In this document: positions 11,309 to 60,850 of the stretch, in pieces | Layout of the letters: each line of letters opens with the position of its first letter | How positions within the stretch are numbered: position 1 is the stretch's first letter | Source: Blastococcus sp. CT_GayMR16 | Lineage (GTDB): Bacteria; Actinomycetota; Actinomycetes; Mycobacteriales; Geodermatophilaceae | Direction of reading: 5' to 3' | Length of the DNA: 64,000 nt | NCBI RefSeq assembly: GCF_004570875.1 | Contig: NZ_SPQK01000005.1 | Span: forward strand, 124,001 to 188,000 | Notes under the pieces: generated by a model | The model's database searches: none | Told to the model about the DNA's origin: nothing | Seen by the model: only the letters and a program-made list of their open reading frames with translations | Program-made: the position numbers and the translations under genes

Positions 11309-11368
11309 GGCCACCCTGCAGGGGCCCGCGCCGAGCCTGCGAGGCGTGGGGGGAAGGGTGGTCCTCTT
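11309..11368 (-). repeat. structured dispersed repeat, copy C
   Basis: Degenerate copy of the repeat also found at 53832-53887 and 60751-60807. Read on the minus strand it starts directly after the TGA of the small Trp-rich ORF. Outer arms are GGGTGG (minus reading of 11311-11316) and CCACCC (11356-11361), extendable by two G-C pairs across one bulged base. An inner stem GGCUCG/CGGGCC has a G-U pair that forms only in minus-strand RNA. The shared core is CCTCGCA-G-GCTCGG. It lies between the small ORF and atpC. Confidence 0.5.
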
Positions 11369-11566
11369 TCAGGCCGAGCGGCGGTACAGCAGTGTCCAGC
11401 GGCCGACGCGGACCCAGGGGTGGCGGACGCTGGAGGCCGGGGCCCATTCCTCGGTGCCGAACCGCGGTCCTTCAGCCCATTCCACCGGCGCGTACGGCGG
11501 CCAGGTCCAGTCGCCTTCGTCGCTGCTCGGTGATGCGGCGTTCAGGTCCACGTCGTTCCTCAGCAC
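11369..11566 (-). CDS. small Trp-rich hypothetical protein between atpD and atpC
   Basis: Open frame of 65 codons (GTG at 11566) or 60 codons (GTG at 11551, preceded by AGGA at good spacing). The product has a hydrophilic N terminus, then [15 protein letters not shown] and EEWAP, and a basic end [14 protein letters not shown]. Five Trp in about 60 residues and mostly G/C third bases are unlike random shadow frames. No signal peptide or helix. Its stop codon abuts a structured repeat, as does the sodN stop elsewhere in the window, which supports it being a real gene. I do not recognise a family, and its position inside the atp operon is unexpected. Confidence 0.45.
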
Positions 11567-11706: not shown

Positions 11707-11748
11707 GGCCGGCACGACGCCGGCCGGGCCTCCCGGAGGGAGACCCGG
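11707..11748 (-). terminator. double hairpin downstream of atpD
   Basis: Two adjoining stems lie about 65 bp beyond the atpD stop. The first is a perfect 7-bp stem GGCCGGC/GCCGGCC with a 5-nt loop (11707-11725). The second is an 11-bp stem with one C/A mismatch and a GGA loop (11724-11748). They share two bases and so are mutually exclusive at their edges. There is no strong U-tract, as is common in high-GC actinobacteria. Could terminate or attenuate the atp transcript before atpC. Confidence 0.55.
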
Positions 11749-11811
11749 CCGCGGTCGGGCCCCTGCGTGGTCCCGCCGCAGACGTGCGAGCGGCGGGGGC
11801 AGGGTGTCCGG

Positions 11812-14302
<2,491 letters not shown>

Positions 14303-53831: not shown

Positions 53832-53887
53832 AAGGGGCCCCTCCTCCCCACCCTTCGCACGCTCAGCGCAGGCCCGGGACGGGCCAC
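53832..53887 (+). repeat. structured dispersed repeat, copy B
   Basis: About 57-bp copy sharing the core CCTTCGCACGCTC and GGGACGGGCCAC end with copy A (60751-60807). Arms GGCCC (53836-53840) and GGGCC (53881-53885) pair. A second hairpin, GTGCGC/GCGCAC with flanking CACCT/AGGTG, follows at 53885-53918. It lies 116 bp behind the ATPase gene, in a 221-bp interval that otherwise shows nothing. Confidence 0.6.
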
Positions 53888-60346: not shown

Positions 60347-60748
60347 ATGCGTTTTCCCCGCATGTTCTCCGCCGTGGAGGCCACCGCTCACTGCGACCTC
60401 CCGTGCGGCGTCTACGACCCGGCTCAGGCCCGCATCGAGGCCGAGTCCGTCAAGGCGATCCAGGAGAAGTACCAGGGCAACGAGGACCCGGTCTTCCGTA
60501 CCCGCGCGATCCTGATCAAGGAGCAGCGGGCGGAGCTGGTCAAGCACCACCTGTGGGTGCTGTGGACCGACTACTTCAAGCCCCCGCACTTCGAGAAGTA
60601 CCCGCAGCTGCACGAGCTGTTCAACAAGGCCACCAAGCAGGCCGGTGCGGCCGGCGGCAAGGGCAGCATGGACCCGGCGGAGGGGCAGAAGCTCCTCGAC
60701 CTGATCGCCGAGATCGACAAGATCTTCTGGGAGACCAAGGCCGCCTGA
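60347..60748 (+). CDS. sodN: nickel-containing superoxide dismutase precursor
   Basis: Ni-SOD, removes superoxide in the cytosol. 133 residues. Propeptide MRFPRMFSAVEATA (1-14) is followed by the nickel hook HCDLPCGVYDP; His15, Cys16 and Cys20 of the precursor become His1, Cys2 and Cys6. The rest is the four-helix bundle (IQEKYQGNEDPVFRTRAILI, HHLWVLWTDYFKPPHFEKYP). Canonical length. CGGAGG ribosome-binding site. Stop codon abuts a structured repeat and terminator. Confidence 0.98.
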   Translation: MRFPRMFSAVEATAHCDLPCGVYDPAQARIEAESVKAIQEKYQGNEDPVFRTRAILIKEQRAELVKHHLWVLWTDYFKPPHFEKYPQLHELFNKATKQAGAAGGKGSMDPAEGQKLLDLIAEIDKIFWETKAA

Positions 60749-60750
60749 TG

Positions 60751-60807
60751 AAGGACCCCGTCCTCCTCACCCCTCGCACGCTCGGGGCGAGCCTCGGGAC
60801 GGGGCCA
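60751..60807 (+). repeat. structured dispersed repeat, copy A
   Basis: Best-formed copy. Perfect outer arms CCCCGTCC (60756-60763) and GGACGGGG (60797-60804), and inner stem GCTCG-GGG-CGAGC (60780-60792). The sequence TCACCCCTCGCACGCTCGG fills the left half of the loop. It begins 2 nt after the sodN TGA. A 27-codon frame through it is not thought to be a protein because frames differ between copies. Confidence 0.7.
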
Positions 60808-60850
60808 CGGCGCTGTCGGGTCACCCATTGACGGGGACCCGGCAGCGCTG
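60808..60850 (+). terminator. probable sodN terminator
   Basis: 15-bp stem (60808-60822 with 60836-60850) containing two G-U pairs in plus-strand RNA, extended by CCC/GGG around loop ATTGAC, followed by CCGTGTGTGACCTGTTCG. The wobble pairs favour plus-strand function, consistent with sodN termination. Confidence 0.7.

Follow-up and report, generated by a model that had tools for sequence, protein, structure and literature searches.

The window, i.e. the whole stretch of 64,000 nucleotides analysed here, contains three copies (A, B and C) of a short palindromic element (Table 1). An earlier note on this DNA had described three dispersed repeats whose outer arms differ and still pair. The three copies were recovered at the same positions and on the same strands, and all three pairs of arms are present. 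Two of the copies had been said to adjoin stop codons. This is correct for copy A (ORF ending at 60748, forward strand) and for copy C, whose start lies directly past the stop of an ORF ending at 11369 on the reverse strand, a weak gene call (score 9.3). For copy B, the most degenerate of the three, the closest stop called upstream is 116 nt away. The earlier note does not list a fourth, weak copy, D, which falls under the genome-wide cut and stands outside the 139 copies considered below.

Table 1. Positions of the repeat copies and of neighbouring features in the window.
Feature	Position	Strand	Description
Copy A	60751..60806	+	core AAGG...GGCC; 76.3 bits in the covariance model, A itself in the model
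Copy A, outer stem	60756..60763 and 60797..60804		GG + CCCCGTCC (60756-60763) pairing with GGACGGGG (60797-60804) + CC; one bulged A
Copy A, inner stem			CTC/GAG + CCCC/GGGG
Copy A, loop	60774..60783		TCGCACGCTC
TGA stop, ORF ending at 60748	60746..60748	+	2 nt upstream of copy A
GC-rich hairpin	60810..60848	+	GCGCTGTCGGGTC...GACCCGGCAGCGC; 3' of copy A; by reading
Copy B	53832..53887	+	arms GGCCC/GGGCC; 52.9 bits, B itself in the model
Copy C	11309..11368	-	arms CCACCC/GGGTGG, tail GTTCCA; 76.8 bits, C itself in the model
Copy D	11750..11813	-	26.5 bits (window search, E 0.00026); located at the stop of ORF 11812-13254 (-)
Terminator-like hairpin, T-rich tail	11707..11725	-	3' of copy D; terminator scan

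The evidence is carried by the family, not by any one copy. The short core CTCGCACGCTCG, taken as a ground in the earlier note, occurred 15 times in the window at 2 mismatches where 39 occurrences were expected; it is not above chance. Single copies folded weakly better than their shuffled counterparts (z between -0.07 and -2.40, both strands). In an Rfam search of the window alone a tRNA was the sole match, and the repeat belonged to no Rfam family above the gathering score.

A 20-base core pattern, allowing up to 2 mismatches, gave 65 matches in the whole CT_GayMR16 genome compared with 1 for a reversed-pattern control. A covariance model was then built from 37 CT_GayMR16 copies and returned at least 139 copies in this genome at E <= 0.01. 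As A, B and C are among the 37, their bit scores are high by construction. The element is about 57 bp long with the layout AAGG(A)CC...GGCC. It folds into a two-stage hairpin: GG/CC, one bulged A and 8 further pairs make up the outer stem, 3 + 4 pairs the inner stem, which encloses a highly conserved loop of 10 nt, TCGCANGCTC. In 105 distinct ungapped CT_GayMR16 copies seven of the ten loop positions were 97-99% conserved, a T 93% and an A 88%, and one position was free; because the copies were found via their core, this conservation is partly a selection effect. For the loci of relatives, the selecting pattern kept part of the inner stem constant as well. All-against-all comparison revealed nothing consistent past the element save a further 3' tail, GTTCCANCACGTCACCA, in some copies. 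No two model matches in CT_GayMR16 were closer than 270 nt, and 16 of the 139 listed copies shared more than 15 nt with a called ORF.

Most of the Geodermatophilaceae genomes tried contain the family, which is almost absent elsewhere. At E <= 1e-6, matches were obtained in 22 of 41 genomes: in 15 of 16 from the genus (CT_GayMR16 included), in 7 of 9 other Geodermatophilaceae and in 0 of 16 from other families. The number of matches per genome ranged from 2 to at least 128 in this set and from 25 to at least 128 in the 15 positive genomes of the genus; the remaining one, G015, had no match at this threshold. For G018 the count was 4 at E <= 1e-4. When 200 genomes were drawn from the order, 30 had matches, 27 of which were Geodermatophilaceae. 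The other three (G130, G139 and G214) had one or two copies each, and either transfer or contamination may account for these. At least 120 named loci belonged to Geodermatophilus, Blastococcus, Modestobacter, Trujillonella or unnamed Geodermatophilaceae, with three exceptions, a pair of MAG loci labelled 'Frankiales bacterium' and a 'Bacillus' record that is flagged as unverified. The element was found neither in viral contigs with the exact pattern nor, with copy A as blastn query, among phage and plasmid records. The copies outside the family (G130:C17, G139:C6, G214:C132 and C165) are on draft contigs, some of them near a contig end.

Orthologous sites in related genomes were often empty. 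Of the 16 genomes of the genus, 2 had a filled site A and 14 an empty one. By reading, each empty allele carries a GC-rich hairpin after the stop, similar or different, and in the filled allele of CT_GayMR16 a GC-rich hairpin is situated behind the element. Twenty-four further sites were chosen and tried on three relatives, G010, G014 and G015. Orthologs were available for 11 of 12 stop sites and for 11 of 12 non-stop or nested sites, and in both groups the copy was absent from at least one relative in 11 of 11, i.e. 22 of 22 together, where 'empty' denotes that no element follows the junction and the downstream flank of some relatives did not match. Conversely, a 57-base stretch matching copy A without any difference was present at unrelated loci in G010 and G008. 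Five sites (C43:236514, C43:7307, C12:47518, C2:24683 and C45:40517) were filled in CT_GayMR16 and G010 and empty in the closer G014; therefore, repeated insertion or precise loss is needed. The ORF before site A (60737-60748; L166) has one GCC codon fewer in the filled alleles (CT_GayMR16, G001) than in the empty ones.

Some copies also lie within other copies. Site C47:152941 exists in three states: no element in G015, a plain copy in G010 and a copy within a copy in CT_GayMR16. Further nests were recognized by reading in relatives (L224, L230, L235, L240, L244, L260, L274 and L285). An automatic finder of nested copies was discarded as noisy, several of its matches being chance inverted repeats, and nests are named from reading only. 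At C1:13227 of CT_GayMR16 a copy seemingly lies within another copy of opposite orientation. At L278:24-191, L232:3325-3420, L286:3486-3586 and L250:1335-1431, in Modestobacter and Geodermatophilus, copies stand in tandem or are interleaved at spacings of about 50-100 nt, and some seem truncated.

The placement of the copies was narrow. With stop distances based on a simple gene caller, the start of 93 of the 139 listed CT_GayMR16 copies fell between -3 and +5 nt relative to a stop on the same strand, mostly at +2 or +3. In relatives this applied to 101 of 178 copies in at least 120 loci, compared with 0.4% for positions drawn at random and 3.7% for random intergenic ones. The stops at copies were TGA, TAG and TAA in 68, 18 and 7 cases, at other genes in 329, 58 and 14; the preference was not significant (p 0.09). 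Stop codons are not the only sites, however. Nine CT_GayMR16 copies are located between divergent genes, and six of these have their start 17-19 nt away from the opposite-strand gene's start codon. These six abut a TAG which, in the other direction, opens a -10-like TANNNT box; in our own reading of the sequence these are putative promoter boxes. At 7 of 10 non-stop, non-nested sites with orthologs (C43:193933, C9:81922, C12:47518, C42:69702, C34:232020, C4:52437 and C45:40517) a copy-free allele already bears TAG or TAA at the junction. At C2:24683 and C4:61279 an empty allele had no TRR (T-purine-purine) at the junction, and at C42:17521 the flanks had diverged.

Within an 11-nt junction window TRR occurred in 32 of 46 non-stop copies of CT_GayMR16 (control mean about 4, range 1-7) and in 31 of 69 of relatives (control mean about 9, range 5-21), although part of this window is the A-rich foot of the element itself. 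Restricted to the bases outside the model, the counts were 16 of 46 (control 3.8) and 17 of 69 (control 10.2), respectively, i.e. the excess was clear in CT_GayMR16 only, with little in relatives. Eleven of the relatives' 178 matches, near a locus end, were left out of these tests. In 11 of 123 CT_GayMR16 copies TRR near the junction was missing. We infer that the element follows a sequence and not the stop function, and that in a GC-rich genome stop codons and promoter boxes are where TRR and CTAG sequences would lie.

The position right behind same-strand stops, together with strong and covarying pairing, would also suit a transcription terminator or an RNA hairpin that stabilises 3' ends and is selected at gene ends; for REPs of other organisms an action as RNA has been suggested (PMC3733652). 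Yet none of the 139 listed copies had TTTT in the 25 nt behind it, and the terminator scan called none of A-D although it did call a hairpin 3' of D. Copies are located before a gene that we take, from its protein sequence, to be rpmI, behind a presumed rplT and on both sides of presumed rplK and rpoA genes, hardly places for a terminator; one is behind a presumed groEL, named in the same way. Of the 123 copies clear of called genes, 28 have their upstream gene on the opposite strand. The empty orthologous sites also argue against a role at transcript ends, as does the observation, by reading, that at some sites the GC-rich hairpin which follows the stop in the empty allele sits behind the element in the filled one. 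A hairpin was present behind 23 of 89 stop-adjacent copies compared with 12 in one shuffle. This excess is modest, so that survival of the native terminator is judged from the sites compared by eye.

The arms of the element were kept complementary. Over 15 pairs, Watson-Crick pairing in 105 CT_GayMR16 copies was 91.4% compared with 71.6% for shuffled partners (73.2% in the top of 200 shuffles). The covariation score was 0.304 in the 37 model copies (0.088 shuffled) and 0.289 in 115 copies of named relatives (0.090 shuffled; alignment A3, itself fitted to the model), and in neither set did any of 500 shuffles reach it. Sliding the partner by 1-3 columns in the 115 relatives' copies lowered the score to 0.021-0.061. 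Thus the genome-wide covariation and stop-codon enrichment asked for in the earlier note were both confirmed, the former by shuffles and slides in place of R-scape. Pair counts leave out gapped or repeated model matches and cover 105 of 139 copies in CT_GayMR16 and 79 of 115 and 127 of 178 in relatives.

Does the pairing reflect RNA? A single G-U pair had been taken earlier as a hint to an RNA orientation. On the mRNA-sense strand of the CT_GayMR16 copies G-U was rarer than A-C mismatches (10 vs 54), and likewise in 127 copies of relatives (19 vs 43; 19 vs 22 without column pair 24-37). G-U is not in excess on this strand; therefore, wobble pairs are not being kept there. The idea that the A-C excess signals a structure of the complementary strand was dropped in view of the relatives' 19 vs 22 without pair 24-37. 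With G-U not favoured, orthologous sites often empty and TTTT absent, we consider a terminator or 3'-end RNA hairpin very improbable. Hence, of the identities proposed in the earlier note, the REP-like mobile unit is supported whereas a 3' UTR element and a terminator are unlikely.

The compensations were mostly flips of C-G to G-C with few G-U, and such flips also distinguish the CT_GayMR16 and G010 copies at C12:47518 and C2:24683. These could arise without selection on structure, namely by template switching which copies one arm of a quasi-palindrome into the other. Hairpins are reportedly generated and maintained by this process (PMC8794818), and the two sites would bear on it, assuming a single shared insertion at each. 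Template switching is compatible with mobility, but leaves copy number, empty sites, nesting and the conserved loop unexplained; as the source of the compensation it is possible, if rather doubtful. The arm flips fit template switching or replacement by mobile copies equally well as selection. A 'selected RNA' does not follow from arm compensation.

Filled and empty alleles were compared at the junctions by reading. No consistent target duplication was evident, and TGA or TGAGG-like repeats occurred in single copies only. TRR at the right junction was slightly in excess, with 8 of 133 copies at each of the first two offsets and about 2 farther out (6 of 139 CT_GayMR16 copies with ends not placed by the pattern were left out). 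A minority of target duplications is possible. Target bases behind TRR were often missing, roughly 7-19 nt by reading: a 7-10 nt spacer at C43:7307, about 15 nt at site A and about 19 nt at C47:152941 relative to G010. Several nested copies lack about 9-12 host nucleotides, judged against the family consensus. At C2:98974 there was no target loss and about 7 extra bases (by reading).

These junctions bear on the question whether the element is a MITE of a DDE insertion sequence with a CTAG- or TNA-type target. CTAG was present at the left junction of 14 of the 139 listed CT_GayMR16 copies and in none of the left-flank control windows. The slight TRR excess on the right would agree, and by eye the 5' sequence TGAAAAGGACC weakly resembles the 3' tail TGGAACGGCC read in reverse. 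However, no consistent target duplication of fixed length was seen, and the right-junction TRR never exceeded the above count at any offset. A MITE is improbable.

The closest known relatives in behaviour are the REPs and REPINs of gamma-proteobacteria, short high-copy extragenic palindromes. REPs mostly follow ORFs, at distances of up to 20 bp in the two species shown (PMC3733652), usually exceed 100 per genome (PMC2817692) and, as REPINs, commonly have compensatory changes in their hairpins (PMC3116915). GTAG REPs are tied to the RAYT transposase, TnpA_REP (PMC2817692, PMC8266576), of the IS200/IS605 type, which acts on single strands (PMC8266576), and their GTAG ends often supply a TAG stop (PMC3733652). 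The term 'Actinobacteria' is absent from the text of PMC3733652, yet REP-like sequences of M. tuberculosis are mentioned. The high copy number, the extragenic position near ORF 3' ends and the compensated arms (PMC3733652, PMC3116915) would make the present family an ordinary REP/REPIN moved by a RAYT, and GTAG was indeed found near the foot of 15 of 123 copies (those with a readable foot; 16 of 139 unplaced by the pattern were left out). Yet 108 of the 123 lack it, and the element is longer and two-staged (about 57 bp vs 20-40 bp of a REP). Unlike REPINs, the CT_GayMR16 copies form no head-to-head pairs, no two model matches lying within 270 nt, though some copies are nested.

Furthermore, the Pfam domain Y1_Tnp, which marks the RAYT family, was detected in 0 of 76 Geodermatophilaceae genomes at E <= 0.001, whereas the control was positive in 5 of 14 genomes, E. 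coli and four others. An ordinary RAYT-driven REP is thus unlikely. Spread as a retroelement by a resident reverse transcriptase was considered as well; RVT_1 was absent from CT_GayMR16 and from the copy-rich G002, G005 and G006. RAYT and reverse transcriptase were rejected as mobilisers on these grounds. An autonomous unit flanked by copies was likewise rejected, as the proteins encoded between neighbouring copies look ordinary by reading. The family works like a REP yet does not pass as one by the two defining tests, the GTAG tag and RAYT; therefore, we file it as a variant of the REP kind and not as an ordinary REP.

The copies are very probably non-autonomous mobile palindromes of about 57 bp, some with a 3' tail, REP-like and nearly confined to the Geodermatophilaceae. 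They are numerous, present or absent at orthologous sites, identical at unrelated loci across species, and nested; their arms stay complementary, and they sit tightly 3' of T-purine-purine, i.e. of TGA, TAG or TAA and in some cases of the TAG or CTAG of a reversed -10-like box. How might such an element move? With the loop conserved and the arms varying in a compensated manner, a trans-acting enzyme may recognise the hairpin, perhaps as single-stranded DNA. It would join the element behind (Y)TRR with no consistent target duplication and often with loss of a short target stretch. Mobility would then depend on complementary arms, which template switching between the arms of the palindrome may restore as well. 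As TRR and CTAG in a GC-rich genome would mostly be stop codons and promoter boxes, and as insertion right after a stop would do little harm, copies would pile up there with no need of a role in ending transcripts. Tentatively, and with somewhat less than even confidence, we propose spread without a RAYT-type transposase, by an enzyme that reads TRR or CTAG, puts the element in place of a short target stretch and also takes the loop of the element itself as a target, which would produce inward growth like nested dolls. If true, RAYT-free spread of palindromes is a new mobilisation route for REP-like DNA.

Here, then, is an actinobacterial family with dozens to more than 100 REP-like copies in many genomes in which no Y1_Tnp was found. 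The filled and empty alleles, the nests and the match-free G015 make the question of how RAYT-less REPs move directly testable. A caution also follows: stop adjacency and covariation, easily taken for a 3'-UTR RNA, can come from mobile DNA, and annotators of Geodermatophilaceae genomes may take the repeats for terminators. In the open-access literature, and by a term search of PMC6006769, no earlier report of this repeat was found, subscription journals and preprints being mostly outside the scope of the search.

Two other repeat systems invite comparison. The mycobacterial MIRU is an actinobacterial intergenic repeat that inserts at TGA-type sites between genes; the present element would differ from MIRU in sequence and structure. 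The CGTC-tagged REPs (dRS3, rickettsial RPE) resemble it in their location near ORF 3' ends and, like it, have no known dedicated transposase (PMC3733652). They differ in having stems of 8-9 bp and loops of 4-5 bp compared with 10 outer and 7 inner pairs and a 10-nt loop here. A tail subfamily of the present element contains CACGTCACCA, probably a coincidence. Finally, the loop variants TCGCTCCGCTC or TCGCTTCGCTC were observed in CT_GayMR16 at C46:92965, C46:97473, C46:97997, C19:33697 and C14:7879, three of them with the tail GTTCCANCNCNTCACCA.
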